A DNA stretch of 54,133 bases, taken from the NCBI GenBank assembly GCA_003670925.1, contig QWQG01000248.1, forward strand, positions 1 to 54,133, given 5' to 3'. The translations under genes were made by a program, and so were the position numbers. The notes below the pieces were generated by a model, which worked only from the letters and a program-made list of their open reading frames with translations, searched no databases and was not told the DNA's origin. The DNA is from Planctomycetota bacterium (GTDB lineage Bacteria > Planctomycetota > Planctomycetia > Planctomycetales > Planctomycetaceae). Positions 326 through 29,041 of the stretch are shown piece after piece. Numbering within the stretch: position 1 is the first letter of the stretch; every line of letters begins with the position of its first letter.

Positions 326-766
326 ATGAGCAACACATTCAATTTCTACTGCGACGAGAGTTGTCATCTGCTGAATGATCGGCAGGAAGTGATGACCGTC
401 GGCACTGTCTGGTGTCCGGCTGAGAAACGTCGTGAAATCTGCGTACGACTCCGAGAAATCAAAGCACGTCACAAACTGTCGCCTCAGTTCGAAGTGAAAT
501 GGGGAAAGATTTCGCCCGCGAAAGCTGAGTTTTATCTGGATTGGCTGGACCTGTTTCTGGATGACGACGACCTTCGTTTTCGAGCGGTTGTCGTGCCACA
601 AAAATCAAAACTGCACCATGATCGAGGATTTCCCTGGCGACGATTTCCTGACTCGGTGGCGAACGTTCATCGAACATGTCTATCAGCGTTATTTGAAGAC
701 GGTCGCTTTCGGAAACCTCAGGTTCCGGGGACTGAACGTGAGTTGCCAATTTCGTCCAGAGACTGA
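326..766 (+). pseudogene. DUF3800-domain protein, N-terminal fragment
   Basis: The first ~95 residues match the start of DUF3800 proteins: FNFYCDESCHL (an RNase H-like fold Asp near the N-terminus), GTVWCP, EVKWGKIS and FRAVVVPQKSKLHH. Family members are usually 200-280 residues and continue after this point with an Asp/His/Trp-rich segment. Here the resemblance stops at about nucleotide 613 and the remaining ~50 residues look like out-of-frame reading of the next gene. DUF3800 proteins often accompany restriction loci and phages, and a nuclease role is suspected but unproven. The fragment lacks the later conserved acidic residues, so it is probably inactive. Reading: a deletion or recombination joined it to the gene starting at 618. 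Confidence 0.6.
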
Positions 767-1100
767 TGGGAAGCACTTTGCATTCTGGCACATGATGCAG
801 GAAGGCAGCGGAGGACGTTCCGAAGATGATCGCACACCAGATCCCGATCGGTGCCGACGAGTAGAATGGATCTCATCAGTTATTAAAAACGCAGAGATCG
901 GAGAGGCGATTCGTGTTTTCAGGCAAGCACCACGAACGAGTGAGAAGCCTTGGGCTCTTTGGCTACACGAGTTCGAGTACGCGGTCATCTTGTGGGAGAG
1001 AAATGGATACTTTCTTCTTAAGACAGCATTTGTGGTAAAGCCGCACAAGAAGAACGAGTTAGAACGGGACTGGAAAGCACATCAGGCCCGAAATGGCTGA
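618..1100 (+). CDS. Small phage/mobile-element type protein, possible RelE/barnase-like nuclease
   Basis: 160 residues from ATG 618; an in-frame upstream ATG at 561 would add 19 residues that do not look like the family. Recognisable pattern: a short N-terminal helix, then FRGLNV, FAFWHMMQEG, a charged DRTPDPDRCRRVEW segment, and near the C-terminus LWLHEFEYAVILWERNGYFLLKT. This resembles a family of small proteins common in prophages and resembling PBECR-type (barnase-EndoU-ColicinE5-RelE-like) nucleases; that fold assignment is tentative. Its start codon falls exactly where similarity in the overlapping DUF3800 fragment stops, so it is intact while its neighbour is broken. A strong hairpin includes its stop codon. 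Confidence 0.55.
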   Translation: MIEDFPGDDFLTRWRTFIEHVYQRYLKTVAFGNLRFRGLNVSCQFRPETDGKHFAFWHMMQEGSGGRSEDDRTPDPDRCRRVEWISSVIKNAEIGEAIRVFRQAPRTSEKPWALWLHEFEYAVILWERNGYFLLKTAFVVKPHKKNELERDWKAHQARNG

Positions 1101-1433: not shown

Positions 1434-1592
1434 ATGACATCGCAAACCTTCATCTTCGAATGCAGCAGTTCCACGTATCTGGACTGTGTGGAAAAGAATC
1501 TTTTCGGTTCGAACAAACTCTGGCCGCTGGAGATCAAGGCCGGTGATTACTGCCTGCTGCATCACTACAAGGTCGGCGAGTTGAATTGTTGA
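1434..1592 (+). pseudogene. Truncated DCD-domain gene (upstream copy)
   Basis: 52 codons starting [18 protein letters not shown] and ending in TGA after VGELNC. The first 49 codons align without gaps to the intact gene at 3206, about 125 of 147 bases identical by eye, and most differences are at synonymous third positions. The second half of the domain (the [10 protein letters not shown]...FPYQVKVKL part) is missing, cut 38 bp before the start of the TIGR04255 gene. The synonymous pattern implies that both copies evolved as functional genes before this one was cut, so it is probably a relic of recombination between two related loci and not a fresh tandem duplication. Confidence 0.75.
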
Positions 1593-1629
1593 GTGGCTGT
1601 TCGGTTTCAATTGTCATAGACTCAACCAG

Positions 1630-2373
1630 ATGGACCAACGACGCATCTATTCCCAAGCTCCGATTACCGAGGCAATTATCGACCTCCGGATCGCCGCGCG
1701 TACGGAAATCGACCTGGACATGTTGCGTCGATTATCGGAAGCAACTCAGGACCGGTTTCCACGTATTGATCCAATCTATGAAGCGACTGGAAAAATGCAG
1801 GTTAAGCCGGGCATTTCCGCATCAGCGTCAGCTCATCAGATTCAGTTGGGGTTCCGGGCAATTTCATCTGATGCCAAAATCGTTTGCCAGCGGCAACTCA
1901 CAGGATTTACCGTAAGCCGGTTGGCACCGTATGAAAGCTGGGAGCCGTTCCGTGATCTTGCCAGAGAATTGTGGGATCAGTACCGTACCGCAGTTGGCTG
2001 CGACGTGGTCACACGAATTGCAGTGCGATACGTAAATCGGATTGATCTCCCCGAATCACCTGTGGAGTTGAAACATTACTTTCGGACGTCGCCGGAAGTT
2101 TCAGCCGATCTTCCGCAACTTATGGAAGGTTTCTTTATGCAGATTCGGTTGCCTCAGGCGGATATTGGATCTACGGCAGTCCTGAATCAGACAATTGTTC
2201 CATCGCTTCAATCTGATTGCACGTCTGTAGTTCTGGATATTGATTTGTTTCGTGATCACGCACTGCCGGGCGATGAGTGTGCCCTTTGGGAGTGCTTCGA
2301 AGTGCTTCATGATCGCAAGAATGAAATCTTTGAGGCTTGCATCACCGATGCGGCTCGGGAGTTGTTTGACTGA
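1630..2373 (+). CDS. TIGR04255 family protein
   Basis: 247 residues. It carries the family pattern: YSQAPITEAIIDLRI at the start, FTVSRLAPYESWEPF in the middle, TRIAVRYVNRIDLP, then SVVLDIDLF and a C-terminal DRKNEIFEACITDAARELF. TIGR04255 is a sporadically distributed family of unknown function, often in genomic islands and defence neighbourhoods; no catalytic motif is evident. Its stop overlaps the next start (TGATG, 1 bp), and the third gene overlaps the second by 4 bp, so all three are probably translated together. The cassette sits between hsdS and hsdR, which suggests but does not prove a defence-related job. Confidence 0.82.
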   Translation: MDQRRIYSQAPITEAIIDLRIAARTEIDLDMLRRLSEATQDRFPRIDPIYEATGKMQVKPGISASASAHQIQLGFRAISSDAKIVCQRQLTGFTVSRLAPYESWEPFRDLARELWDQYRTAVGCDVVTRIAVRYVNRIDLPESPVELKHYFRTSPEVSADLPQLMEGFFMQIRLPQADIGSTAVLNQTIVPSLQSDCTSVVLDIDLFRDHALPGDECALWECFEVLHDRKNEIFEACITDAARELFD

Positions 2374-2654
2374 TGGCTGTTGCTGACTTACCACCACGCA
2401 CTTCTTCAACCTTTCAGGATGTCTGCCCTTACTATGAATTTGAGGGCGACAGTAGCCGGATTCTGCTGGAACAGTTTGGTGCTGCAATACGACAATGGCA
2501 GAATCGTCCGAGCGTCGTCGTTAATTCTATTGAAGACACTGAATCGATTTTGCATTTGCCGTTCGCGAAAGCAGGGACGATGAAAGTCCGATTCAAAATG
2601 ACCGGAGCGATGACGCCTCGCGTCATCGATATGGAAGAGGCTGTCGAAGAATGA
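2373..2654 (+). CDS. Small protein of unknown function, middle gene of TIGR04255 cassette
   Basis: 93 residues, soluble, mixed alpha/beta in appearance, with no signal peptide, TM segment or Cys-ligand cluster. Notable segments are CPYYEFEGDSSRILLEQF and a basic strand MKVRFKMTGAMTPRV followed by an acidic tail. I do not recognise a family. Start is fixed by overlap with the stop of the TIGR04255 gene and it ends overlapping the next gene by 4 bp, strong evidence that it is real and stoichiometrically linked to its neighbours. It could be an adaptor or an antitoxin-like partner; that is speculation from size and position. Confidence 0.7.
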   Translation: MAVADLPPRTSSTFQDVCPYYEFEGDSSRILLEQFGAAIRQWQNRPSVVVNSIEDTESILHLPFAKAGTMKVRFKMTGAMTPRVIDMEEAVEE

Positions 2655-3178
2655 GCGATCTTTGGTGGCAGTCCGTGAGTGGCAGAAATCTGGCTCAGGG
2701 GGACCTGCTGCCGAATTGCCTACTGCCAGTATTTGTCGCCCCAACTGCCAGCCAGTCATCAGACGACTCGCAGGAAGTTTCTGTACTGACTGCGCGATTG
2801 ATCGTTGTCACGCAGAGTTGCGACCTGGAGAACAAGAAAGTTCAGTTTGGAGCGCTGTGCCCAATTCATACGCTTGAAGAGTTTGCAGGACAGAATCCTC
2901 ACTTTCAGAAGACAAAGAACTGGGAGGCAGTTCGAAAGGGGCAAGTGCAAGCTCTTCACATGATCGCTTCGCCTGAATACCCGGAAATCAACACGCAGTC
3001 GATGGTTGTTGACTTTGGCCATATCGTCAGCCTGCCGATTGCCTATCTTGAGGATCACGCTGCGGCAATTGGTGACCGCTGGAGACTGGAGTCTCCGTTT
3101 CTTGAACACTACTCTCAGGCATTCGCACGCTTCTTTATGCGTGTTGGCCTTCCATCTGGAATCGCTCAATTCAGCTAA
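2651..3178 (+). CDS. Protein with TQSCDLEN motif, third gene of TIGR04255 cassette
   Basis: 175 residues starting at the ATGA overlap with the preceding gene. N-terminal WWQSVSGRNLAQGDLLPNCLLPVF is followed by a hydrophobic strand LTARLIVVTQSCDLENKKV and then CPIHTLEEF, NWEAVRKGQ, LHMIASPEYP and DFGHIVSLPI. The strand-then-QSCDL arrangement recurs in hypothetical proteins of accessory islands that I recall but cannot name; the Cys is a candidate functional residue. No membrane segment. The C-terminal YSQAFARFFMRVGLP looks helical. Function unknown; the tight coupling suggests it works with the TIGR04255 protein. Confidence 0.72.
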   Translation: MSDLWWQSVSGRNLAQGDLLPNCLLPVFVAPTASQSSDDSQEVSVLTARLIVVTQSCDLENKKVQFGALCPIHTLEEFAGQNPHFQKTKNWEAVRKGQVQALHMIASPEYPEINTQSMVVDFGHIVSLPIAYLEDHAAAIGDRWRLESPFLEHYSQAFARFFMRVGLPSGIAQFS

Positions 3179-3205
3179 TTCGAGCGACATTGAGACGACC
3201 GGATA

Positions 3206-3589
3206 ATGACATCACAAACCTTCATCTTCGAATGCAGCAGTTCAACTTACCTAGACTGCGTCGAAAAGAATCTTTTCGGCTCGAACAAGCCGTGGCCGCT
3301 GGAGATCAAAACCGGTGACTACTTGCTCCTGCATCACTACGAAATCGGCGGTCTGCTGGGGCTTTGGCAGGCGACGTCCAATGGCGGCAAGAACCTGGTG
3401 CCGAAGGTCTGGGGCGGGAAGTTTCCGTATCAGGTCAAAGTCAAACTGGTGATTCCCAAGGTGACCGATGTGCCGAAGTCGGTTCTGAAGAAACTGGGCA
3501 TCGATGCGGCCATCGGACGGTTCGACAATTGTGTGGATGAAGATACGGCGGAAGATCTGATTCGTTCCTTACTCGGTGCAGCATCCTGA
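3206..3589 (+). CDS. DCD-like (PUA/EVE-related) domain protein in a type I RM locus
   Basis: 127 residues. The pattern [20 protein letters not shown], then [34 protein letters not shown] and FPYQVKVKL follows the Development-and-Cell-Death (DCD) domain consensus: LFG, a hydrophobic strand pair, G-x-W/F-x-A, N-x-x-P-x-A/V-W and FPxQVxV. DCD is related to EVE/PUA-like folds proposed to bind modified bases, and in prokaryotes such domains recur beside restriction systems. A ~45-residue C-terminal extension ([10 protein letters not shown]...[14 protein letters not shown]) may be helical. hsdR starts 10 bp downstream with its ribosome site GAAGG at 3588-3592 overlapping this stop codon, so they are co-transcribed. 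A proposed role is sensing methylation or DNA modification for HsdR. Confidence 0.72.
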
Positions 3590-3599
3590 AGGCCTCTCA

Positions 3600-6500
3600 A
3601 TGTCACTCAACGAAGCGATCGTCGAAGATGCAGCCCGGAGTTGGTTCGGAGAACTGGGCTACGCTGTGGGCCACGGGCCGAACATCGCGCCGGGGGAATC
3701 GGGCGCTGAACGGTCGTCGTTTGGTGATGTGGTGCTGGTGGCTCGGCTGCGAAACGCGATTCAACGACTGAACCCGTTGATTCCCGAGGAAGCCCAGGAC
3801 GAGGCCCTGCGGAAGGTCCTGCGGCCTGACACGCCGTCGGTCACGCGCACGAACCGGGCGTTTCACAAAATGCTGCGGGACGGGGTCGAGGTCGAATACC
3901 GCCGGCCGGATGGCTCCATCGCTGGCGATCGCGTGCGGCTGCTGGATTTTTTAGACCCTGCCGGTAATGACTGGTTTGTCGTCAATCAGTTCACGGTCAT
4001 CGAAACGCATCACAACCGCCGCCCGGATCTGGTGGTCTTCGTCAACGGACTGCCGCTGGCGTTGATCGAACTCAAAAATGCCGCCGATGAAGATGCGACG
4101 ATCTGGTCGGCGTATGCTCAGTTGCAGACGTACAAGGCGGAAATTCCGTCCTTGTTGCAATACAACGAACTGCTGATTGTGTCGGACGGCCTCCAGGCGC
4201 GCATCGGATCGCTCACCGCGAATCAGGAATGGTTCAAGGTCTGGCGAAGTATCGACGGCGAAGGAGAAGCCCCGCGGACCGCTTTGGAACTGGAGGTGCT
4301 GATTCGCGGGGTCTTTGAGAAGCGACGGTTCCTGGATCTGCTGCAACACTTCATCGTGTTCGAAGAAGACACGGACAGCGACCGGCTGCACAAGATCATT
4401 GCCGGGTATCACCAGTTCCATGCGGTGAATGCGGCGGTCGAAGAAACCGTCCGGGCCAGTGGCATGGCGGCTGACCTCGAAACAGCCGAACTTCCGGAAG
4501 GTCAGTATTGGGCGGGCCGGATGCATGGCGGTAAATCAGGCGACCGCAGGGCGGGCGTGGTCTGGCATACTCAGGGATCCGGGAAAAGTTTCTCGATGCT
4601 GTTTTATGCGGCTCGGGTTGTCCGTGAACCAGCCATGCGAAATCCGACGATCGTGGTTCTGACGGATCGCAACGATCTGGACGATCAGCTGTTCGGCCAG
4701 TTTCAGCGATGTTACGAGCAACTGAACCAGATGCCCGTTCAGGCTAGGGATCGTGAGCATCTGCGGGAACTGCTGAAGGTGTCCAGCGGCGGAGTGATCT
4801 TCACGACGATCCAGAAGTTCATGCCGGACAAGGGCGAACGGATGTTTTCGCTGAGCGACCGTCGGAACATCATCGTGATCGCTGATGAAGCTCACCGAAG
4901 TCAGTACGACTTGATCGACGGGCTGGCTCGCAACCTGCGGGATGCGTTGCCGAATGCGTCGTTCATTGGGTTTACGGGAACGCCGATCGAACAAAACGAC
5001 GCCAACACACGGGCCATCTTCGGGGATTACATCTCGATCTACGACATTCAGCGAGCGGTCGCCGATGGTTCTACGGTTCCGATTTACTATGAAAGCCGGA
5101 TTGCCAAGCTCGCTCTGAACATCGCGGCACTGCCACGGCTGGATCAGGAATTCGATGAAATCACCGAGGGCGAGGAACAGACCAGCCGGGAGAAGTTGAA
5201 ATCGAAATGGGCGGCGTTGGAAGCACTGGTCGGCGACCCGAAACGTATCAAGCTGATTGCGGCAGATCTGATTCAGCACTTTGAAAAACGCCTGGAAGCG
5301 ATGAACGGAAAAGCCATCGTGGTCTGCATGAGCCGCCGCATCTGCGTCGACCTGCACAACGCAATCATTGCTTTGCGACCGGATTGGGGCAGTGCTGAAA
5401 ACGACGATGCGGAAGCCGAGAAGTCGAAGGACACGGTCGTGAAAATTATCATGACGGGCAGCGCGGACGACGGACCGGACTGGCAATCTCACATCCGCAA
5501 CAAGGACAAGCGCCGCAAGCTAGCGAACCGATTCAAGGACGCCAAAGATCCCTTCAAGATCGTGATTGTGCGGGACATGTGGCTGACGGGTTTTGATGCG
5601 CCGTGTCTACACACGATGTACGCTGACAAACCGATGCGTGGCCACGGGCTGATGCAGGCCATCGCCCGCGTCAATCGGGTATTCCGGGACAAACCGGGCG
5701 GGCTAGTCGTCGATTATCTTGGTCTGGCCGACCAGTTGCGGGACGCTCTGGCCACGTACACCGAGAGCGGCGGCACGGGTGCGCCCAGCATCGATACGGC
5801 TCAGGCGATTGCGATCATGCTGGAGAAATACGAAGTCGCCTGCGACATCCTGCATGGCTTCGACGGGGGCCTGTGGACGACGGGAACTGGTGTGCAACGG
5901 TTATCGCTGATCCCGGCCGCTCAGGAACATGTCCTGGAACAGGAAGACGGCAAGCAACGCTTCATCAAAGTGGTGACGGACTTGTCACGGGCGTTTGCCC
6001 TCTGTGCCGCCAGCGACGAAGCGACCGACATTCGCGACGACGTGGCATTCATGCAGGCTATTCAGGCAGCATTGAACAAGCAAACGACGGGCGGCCAAAG
6101 ATCACCGGAGGATCTGGAGGCCGCCATCCGCCAGCTCGTGTCGCAAGCGATTGTCGCCGATGGCCAGATCATTGATGTGTTCACCGCGGCCGGGCTGAAG
6201 AAACCGGACATCAGCATCCTGTCCGATCAGTTTCTCGCCGAGGTCCGCGGTCTGAAGCACAGAAACGTCGCCGCCGAGCTGCTGGAAAAGCTCCTGAAAG
6301 ATGAGATTAAAGTCCGCTCCAAACGCAACTTGGTACAGGCCCAACTGTTCTCGGACAAGCTGAAGCAAACTCTGAATGCGTATCACAACCGGGCGATCGC
6401 GACGCATGAAGTGATTGAGGAGCTAATTCGCCTCGCAAAGGAAATGGAGGCCGCACAGAAGCGTGGCGAAGAACTGGGGCTGACAGACGACGAAATTGCG

Positions 6501-6773
6501 TTCTACGATGCTCTTGCCACGAATGGATCGGCCGTCACGGCGATGGGGGACGAGAAGCTGAAGGTAATCGCGGCCGAGTTGATCAAGATGGTCCGCAAGA
6601 GTGTCACGATTGATTGGAATCTCCGCGACGGGGCCCGGGCAAAGATTCGGGTGATCGTGAAACGCATCCTGAACAAATGGGGCTACCCGCCGGACCTGCA
6701 GGAAGAGGCGGTCAAGACGGTGTTGCAACAGGCGGAGTTGTTATGCGCGGACTGGTCGGAAGGTGCAGTTTGA
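3600..6773 (+). CDS. hsdR: Type I restriction endonuclease subunit HsdR
   Basis: 1057 residues from ATG 3600 (ribosome site GAAGG 7 nt upstream); an earlier in-frame start at 3576 lies inside the DCD gene and is less likely. N-terminal PD-(D/E)xK nuclease: [10 protein letters not shown] with D143, then ALIELKN with E157 and K159. Helicase motor: Walker A TQGSGKS with K329, DEAH box D429-E-A-H432, and motif III FTGTPIE; a motif VI-like AIARVNR follows. Length and domain order are normal for the family and no motif is broken, so the subunit should be functional. It cleaves unmodified DNA after ATP-driven translocation, in complex with HsdM and HsdS. Confidence 0.96.
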
Positions 6774-28567: not shown

Positions 28568-29041
28568 TTAACGAGCAAGAGCAAGCATCCCCGCAATCAG
28601 ATCCTCTGCCAAATCTTCATCAACACAATTGTCGCATCTCCCCACAGCAGGATTCACTCCCAGTTCCGCCAAGATTTTCTTGGGGACTTCTGTCACTGTG
28701 GGAAGCACAAGTTTCACTTTCACCTGAAAAGGAAACTTCCCGCTGTTCCCAGCGCGGTTCTGCGAGAAATCGAGCGCAGGATTTTCGGAGATGGCGATGA
28801 GGTTGCCGAGCTTCTCGACCTTCTGCGCGCCGTCACCGAGTTTGTTCGAGTCGTTGAAGTCGGGGAAGTCGGGGAAGTCGCTGCGGGCGAGGCGGGAGTT
28901 GGCGTCGTACTTGTCGGAGACATATTTGATGAACAGCATGAACAGGACGTAGTCCTTGTACTGGCTGGCATCCATGCCGCCACGCAGTTCGTCGCACGAG
29001 GCCCAGAGGGAGGAGTAGAGGTCGGATTTCTTGATGGCCAT
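28568..29041 (-). pseudogene. HsdM N-terminus fused to a DCD-domain C-terminus
   Basis: 157 residues in one open frame. Residues 1-~97 (MAIKKSDLYSSLWASCDEL, GGMDASQYKDYVLFMLFIKY, DFSQNRAG) are the N-terminal helical domain of the type I methylase HsdM; part is missing, replaced by a short repeat (DFPDFPDF). From NSGKFPFQVKVKLVLPTV on, the last ~60 residues match the C-terminal half of the DCD protein at 3206-3589, including RCDNCVDEDLAEDLI. The whole HsdM catalytic domain and all of hsdS lie between these points in an intact locus, so a deletion joined them in frame. A relic of a second type I RM locus; no activity is expected. Confidence 0.8.

Follow-up and report, generated by a model that had tools for sequence, protein, structure and literature searches.

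A TIGR04255 gene in a putative tripartite toxin-antitoxin module lodged within a planctomycete type I restriction locus

One way to understand a compact three-gene cassette (genes A, B and C) found inside a type I restriction-modification (R-M) locus is to regard it as a tripartite type II toxin-antitoxin (TA) module, in which a protein of the TIGR04255 family, the product of A, serves the N-terminus of the antitoxin. The cassette lies on contig QWQG01000248.1 of a Planctomycetota bacterium, the whole of which (54,133 nucleotides) is called the window here. We think this account is probably the right one. It is carried by the recurrence of the three genes in fixed order, by the fold predicted for C, and by the make-up of B, one end of which goes with C and the other, in part, with A.

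The open reading frames (ORFs) of A, B and C described in an earlier note on this DNA were confirmed, with overlaps of 1 bp (A/B) and 4 bp (B/C). Their placement was confirmed as well, by ORFs and profile matches: they sit between a truncated and an intact gene for a Dev_Cell_Death (DCD) domain, and in turn between the tail of hsdS and hsdR (Table 1). The hsdS-hsdR interval also holds the broken remnant of a PDC-M04A/PDC-M04B (DUF3800) pair, which the earlier note missed. The window spans the entire contig, so that hsdM and the greater part of hsdS fall outside view.

In the scheme proposed, C would be the toxin and B the antitoxin, its conserved C-terminal tail binding and blocking C, as position and conservation suggest; A would bind the N-terminal part of B and be needed for B stability or activity; loss or capture of A would then release C. 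The action proposed for A derives from the different B N-terminus at loci that lack A. Set between hsdS and hsdR, the module might make loss of the R-M locus costly or add a layer of abortive infection; this is the weakest step of the scheme.

Recurrence of the cassette

A search with C located 80 loci, in records named Planctomycetota, Acidobacteria, Cyanobacteria, Chloroflexi, Firmicutes, Methanosarcinales and Asgard archaea, among others; the nearest relatives are planctomycete contigs. A and B were sought around C with profiles grown from these 80 loci, 75 of which have at least 1200 nt upstream of C. A lies directly upstream in 38 of the 75, with the order A-B-C kept in bacteria and archaea alike; the other 37 lack A and have a B-like ORF before C. 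Among the 77 loci that have 400 nt or more of upstream DNA, 54 show a match to the B profile beside C; elsewhere the profile matched only twice in 0.9 Mb. Where it fails, the end of some ORF is nevertheless close to the C start; the only exceptions are L027, L063 and L087, whose contigs start inside C or a short way ahead of it. Two loci carry a second B-like ORF (L060, 9020-9352; L077, 5952-6323), whose end lies 1.35 kb and 3.4 kb, respectively, past the start of C.

The earlier note had proposed that the three genes are inherited together as one unit. The proposal is borne out by the distances between A proteins and between C proteins, which correlate over the 38 loci (r 0.92; none of 2000 permutations as high). 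Co-occurrence at chance level, or partners without homologues, would have spoken against it; the trio was found instead in the same order at dozens of loci in many phyla. The note's further description, a candidate for an undescribed defence-related module, stands as regards the single unit and is recast here as a module with the hallmarks of TA systems.

Of 294 planctomycete genomes, 10 have C and 51 have A; seven of those with C have A next to it. In a tree built from 77 C proteins (74 of known state, 40 with A), the presence of A needs 14 changes, against a mean of 24.8 when states are shuffled, and at least four changes are forced by the starred branches; A has thus been gained or lost repeatedly.

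The proposed toxin, C

A model of C built from 77 sequences has a predicted local distance difference test (pLDDT) score of 92.2. Foldseek listed 50 matches to it from the Protein Data Bank (PDB), MazF, Kid and CcdB structures making up nearly the whole list; probability goes up to 1.00 and target TM score to 0.69, E values start at 1.1e-3, and identity is 8-14%. On this model C has the MazF/Kid/CcdB toxin fold; toxicity is proposed. The arrangement of the genes is also like that of MazEF, PemIK and CcdAB, with a small gene of antitoxin type running into the toxin-type gene. C differs from those toxins in its greater length (175 aa), in an invariant Q-x-C-D and in a conserved C-terminal helix: the invariant residues include Q55-x-C57-D58 and a C-terminal QAFARFFMR. 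Searches of PDB sequences with A, with C, with alignments of A and C, and with two B proteins from loci lacking A gave nothing useful.

A second branch of the C family has the order TIGR04255, helix-turn-helix (HTH)-type protein, larger C relative, the last with open frames of about 280-310 aa and a motif like VVVSQTCDV. It is found at L132, L134, L138, L150, L262, L263 and L265, and also at L149, where the first partner has no match to the HTH profile.

The proposed antitoxin, B

B looks like a modular type II antitoxin, to judge from its sequence: the N-terminus is variable, and the C-terminal tail is conserved beside C. The B protein of each locus was compared with that of the nearest A-bearing relative by C identity, and a match was scored at z > 4, a threshold of our own; the comparison covers 72 of 74 loci, two B proteins shorter than 70 aa being excluded, with start codons chosen by us. 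The C-terminal 50 residues match in 37 of 40 loci with A and in 18 of 32 without. The N-terminus matches in 20 of 40 with A and in 1 of 32 without (Fisher p 6e-6). At C identity of 0.6-0.7 the median N-terminal z is 5.6 when both loci have A and 0.1 in mixed pairs, whereas the C-terminal z is 13 and 14, respectively. The contrast is clearest for L060 (with A) against L076 and L077 (no A), whose tails match at z 31-33 and whose N-termini reach z 1.3-1.9.

In loci without A the N-termini of B are heterogeneous. That of L065 (Oscillatoria) resembles a RelB-like antitoxin (PF18506, E 1.3e-9), and that of L032 is weakly VapB-like (E 0.021); the family listing for the 38 B proteins from loci lacking A covers the first 25 of 57, and 10 of the 38 were then scanned singly. 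The N-termini at L029-L031, L066 and L071 we take, by eye, to be ribbon-helix-helix or similar antitoxin domains; the Pfam scan does not support this.

A shared N-terminal motif among partners of TIGR04255 was also sought, with six patterns. The strongest, YP within the first 25 aa, is present in 13 of the 44 B proteins from loci with A, in none of 38 from loci without, in 6 of 43 other partners and in 9 of 445 control ORFs. Because the archaeal sequences are often close kin and several patterns were tried, we make no claim for it.

The TIGR04255 protein, A

A is a clear member of TIGR04255 (E 1.2e-32, 113.8 bits against a cut-off of 30, profile positions 2-251 of 252). The NCBIfam entry (sporadTIGR04255) gives no function for the family, and open-licence papers yielded no mention of it. 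We read the model of A (pLDDT 93.8), from the order of its strands and helices, as two halves like TATA-binding protein (TBP). TBP is the best solved Foldseek match, with probability 0.98, E 2.5e-3 and a low TM score (0.29/0.37); the best-matching viral model is an unnamed protein (E 2.2e-6, TM 0.52/0.61). A SecB fold was considered and rejected: the best 50 of 972 Foldseek matches include no SecB, and the resemblance is to TBP. A was found on plasmids in three records and gave no phage match.

Genes that follow TIGR04255 elsewhere

The position of A before toxin-type genes, described here for the TIGR04255 family, can be followed beyond the C loci. Of 67 planctomycete TIGR04255 rows 60 were taken, the window's own and six others being omitted. 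By a heuristic rule, 46 of the 60 have a same-strand ORF no more than 135 nt after the end of the TIGR04255 gene, and 40 a second abutting ORF. With 43 further rows (5, 25 and 13) they make a set of 103, searched with local profiles at E<=1e-3; the set represents 100 genes, as L282/L284, L293/L296 and L294/L297 are doubled. C or its larger relative lies downstream in 31 of the 103 rows (30 of 100 genes, L293/L296 counting twice among the 31), a PIN-type gene in seven, and a PemK-type gene in two, one of them weak (2e-4). In seven rows an HTH-type protein stands between TIGR04255 and a C relative with a frame of about 280-310 aa. Pfam assigns PIN to 3 of 40 second partners and 1 of 46 first partners, PemK to 1 of 40 second partners and HTH_3 to 2 of 46 first partners. 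On a Vibrio plasmid the order, by annotation, is TIGR04255, hypothetical protein, zeta toxin family protein; a profile grown from this zeta-family protein drifted onto the first partner at L261, which is not counted. By these profile matches, toxin-type genes recur downstream of TIGR04255 (in 40 of 103 rows), and more than half of the rows have partners not known as toxins. A WDGY-type gene followed by a KPxAFMP-type gene is often seen after TIGR04255, at L142, L154, L175 and other loci.

Weighing the perspectives

Several observations count against a tripartite TA module. Among the partners of TIGR04255, proteins of WDGY or KPxAFMP type, which cannot be called toxins, occur in 28 of 103 rows, both together in 17; an M48 peptidase occurs in four, DUF7689 with a partner in four, and 27 rows have nothing recognised downstream. 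In the Foldseek comparison neither C nor A reaches E 0.001 with any PDB structure. At E<=1, C has no match among the families of Pfam (PF02452 included), NCBIfam and PADLOC, and alignment with 30 PemK proteins leaves only a trace (hhalign probability 9%, E 0.0035, 26 columns); proof from sequence alone that C is a MazF was set aside, the trace being too weak. MazF and PemK proteins have a conserved catalytic Arg before strand 2 and a Thr after strand 3. Arg is absent from the invariant or nearly invariant columns of C before residue 55.

On the side of B, antitoxin families match none of 45 B proteins with A at E<=0.1, the window's B included; the latter gave no Pfam, NCBIfam or PADLOC match even at E<=1. 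The N-terminus of B fails to match the nearest relative in half (20 of 40) of the loci with A, and N-termini differ among loci without A too (at C identity 0.5-0.7 the median z is 0.3-0.5). Fast divergence may therefore account for part of the contrast, and the pairs and loci compared are related by descent. At L051 (7453-7977) a B with the A-type N-terminus has no A upstream, and a VanW-family ORF overlaps the B frame; this locus may have lost A recently. A hydrophobic segment of the kind known from toxin-antitoxin-chaperone (TAC) systems was sought in the N-terminus of B and dismissed, the medians being 1.01 with A and 1.09 without (p 0.90).

The main rival to the tripartite module takes B and C as a two-gene TA pair in which A replaces the DNA-binding N-terminus of the antitoxin: A would repress the operon, and B would connect A to the toxin. 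The antitoxin-like N-termini of B at L065 and, weakly, L032, the altered N-terminus of B where A is present, and the choice of TBP as best solved match for A all agree with this, and it has some claim to be considered; still, we think it unlikely. The similarity of A to TBP is low, and the net charge of A is negative in 35 of 39 sequences, which favours a protein partner over a DNA partner. The partner of A itself matches the HTH profile in seven rows, so that a DNA-binding partner is not always lacking.

Another perspective takes the cassette for an anti-phage system: A would detect some product of the phage, and C would act as an effector enzyme, not as a toxin that an antitoxin keeps in check. 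The site in an R-M locus beside a broken PDC-M04 pair, which fits a defence neighbourhood, speaks for it, as do neighbours of the relatives that match PADLOC models (mad3, mad8, HmaC, Cas9, IetA and others). These neighbours come from 112 proteins at 32 loci, drawn from 225 ORFs chosen at 59 loci as the first to fit the size limit; at E<=1e-10 there were matches to 25 models, none of them in more than two proteins, and several models apparently hit one and the same protein (five Cas9 models, for example); the count was made without a control set. The HsdR of the window was matched at only two of 91 C loci, both cut from this window, many of the loci having short flanks. Against an anti-phage system stand the 37 of 75 loci where C occurs without A, some of them behind housekeeping genes, and the absence of any plasmid or phage record from a tblastn search with C. 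We regard it as rather improbable, a little more so than a repressor role for A. A passenger origin, with functionally unlinked hitchhikers inserted by recombination between the DCD copies, has very little to recommend it: the interval is indeed a site of turnover, with its broken PDC-M04 pair, its truncated DCD gene and the varied cargo seen in relatives, but the same A-B-C order is met with again and again in bacteria and archaea, and the distances of A and C are correlated as given above.

The surrounding restriction locus

Table 1. Features of the hsdS-hsdR interval and its borders, in window coordinates
Feature	Position	Strand	Basis
hsdS, 3' end (type I R-M specificity subunit), cut by contig end	1-177	+	PADLOC Specificity_I, E 3.7e-16
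PDC-M04A (DUF3800) and PDC-M04B pair, broken remnant in two frames	326-1100	+	M04A profile 1-98 of 232; M04B profile 13-158 of 162
DCD gene copy, truncated: some 49 codons related to D followed by a stop	1434-1592	+	146-nt repeat, 86% identity
Gene A, 247-aa TIGR04255 protein with predicted tandem TBP-like fold; proposed antitoxin partner	1630-2373	+
Gene B, proposed antitoxin, 93 aa; N-terminal part tracks A, C-terminal part of about 50 aa tracks C	2373-2654	+
Gene C, predicted MazF/Kid/CcdB-fold protein, 175 aa; proposed toxin	2651-3178	+
Gene D, intact DCD-domain gene, R-M locus companion, outside the cassette	3206-3589	+	PF10539
hsdR, type I restriction subunit	3600-6773	+	TIGR00348, E 5.2e-174; PADLOC REase_I

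The intact DCD gene (D) matches PF10539, Dev_Cell_Death, at E 1.9e-12 (47.5 bits against a cut-off of 27.8). The upstream copy is a direct repeat of positions 3205-3350, and its frame stops at 1590-1592. The two copies differ mostly in silent ways (of 18 codons that differ, 12 are synonymous, and third positions account for 16 of the 22 base differences); they appear, then, to have been functional genes while they diverged, and to have been brought together afterwards, and a fresh tandem duplication is rejected on the same ground. A match to D was found in 6 of 99 relatives searched, the window's own genome included: in one (G313) it lies between hsdS and hsdR, in another (G305) upstream of hsdR pieces, and in a third (G299) directly after an hsdR-like gene (30% identity). 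The DCD/hsdR stretches fetched from genomes of the same genus or family contain no match to A or C. As DCD adjoins hsdR or hsdR-like genes in these stretches without A or C, the DCD genes are assigned, by their neighbours in relatives, to the restriction locus and not to the cassette. We read the bracketing copies as scars of recombination between related restriction loci.

Other arrangements of these genes were seen in passing. On contig C362 of G305, of the same genus, a partial D (37 aa matched), a 445-aa ORF and a full D follow one another (L250, 2860-4695, minus strand); two ORFs toward the hsdR pieces look like a HipA-like protein and DUF3037. On contig C324 of G299 (L251, 716-5848) the order is hsdS-like end, a protein that looks by eye like SEFIR/TIR, hsdR-like gene and DCD, so that DCD lies on the opposite side of the hsdR-like gene. 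In the window itself, at 28568-29041 on the minus strand, what looks by eye like the N-terminus of hsdM runs on, in the same frame, into the C-terminal half of a DCD protein, which shares 65% identity with residues 70-126 of D; this may be the scar of a second, deleted type I R-M locus with a DCD gene.

The PDC-M04 pair is found in apparently intact form, with long open frames, upstream of hsdR at L228 (115-1352) and L240 (2402-3753, minus strand). As a PADLOC candidate of R-M loci it occupies the same kind of place as the cassette, here between hsdS and hsdR; the cassette differs in that none of A, B and C matches a PADLOC model at E<=1.

Has chaperone addiction arisen twice?

The TA module proposed here invites comparison with the TAC systems built on SecB-like chaperones (HigBA, HicAB and MqsRA with SecB; CmdTAC). 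As outlined in one account of TAC, a SecB-like protein binds a C-terminal segment of the antitoxin that is absent from chaperone-independent antitoxins, and this chaperone addiction (ChAD) segment is transferable, working also at the N-terminus of unrelated proteins (PMC5105189). TAC and A-B-C are alike in having three genes, and in that the third protein accompanies several unrelated TA families. The TAC antitoxin carries an additional segment that comes with its third gene; the N-terminal part of B may be an analogue, though its matches follow A only in part (20 of 40 loci with A, 1 of 32 without) and N-termini of B diverge fast in general. They differ in the third protein (SecB-like there; TIGR04255, with a predicted TBP-like fold, here), in gene order, which in A-B-C runs third protein, antitoxin, toxin, the reverse of TAC, and in the place of the dependent segment, C-terminal in TAC and N-terminal in B, where dependence is proposed. 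With an N-terminal segment, a helper that is not SecB and the reversed order, A-B-C is not a member of TAC and may work like one.

A bolder extension, which we put forward tentatively and would not be surprised to see fail, is that TIGR04255 is a transferable helper, unrelated in fold to SecB, that several TA families (MazF-fold, PIN, PemK and perhaps zeta) acquired independently in bacteria and archaea, the antitoxin's own N-terminal domain being swapped each time for a helper-dependent one. Chaperone addiction would then have been invented a second time, and would serve here, in an R-M locus, as a sensor-armed safeguard.

Should the tripartite reading hold, it would supply a function for TIGR04255, which is present in 51 of the 294 sampled planctomycete genomes and in 21 of 194 genomes of the phylum to which the Oscillatoria locus L065 belongs. 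It would add a MazF-fold family that is unnamed in Pfam, NCBIfam and PADLOC (PHROGs not searched), and a third kind of protein that serves antitoxins. A more general question would also become testable: how unrelated TA pairs come to adopt one small protein, and what event switches that protein off.

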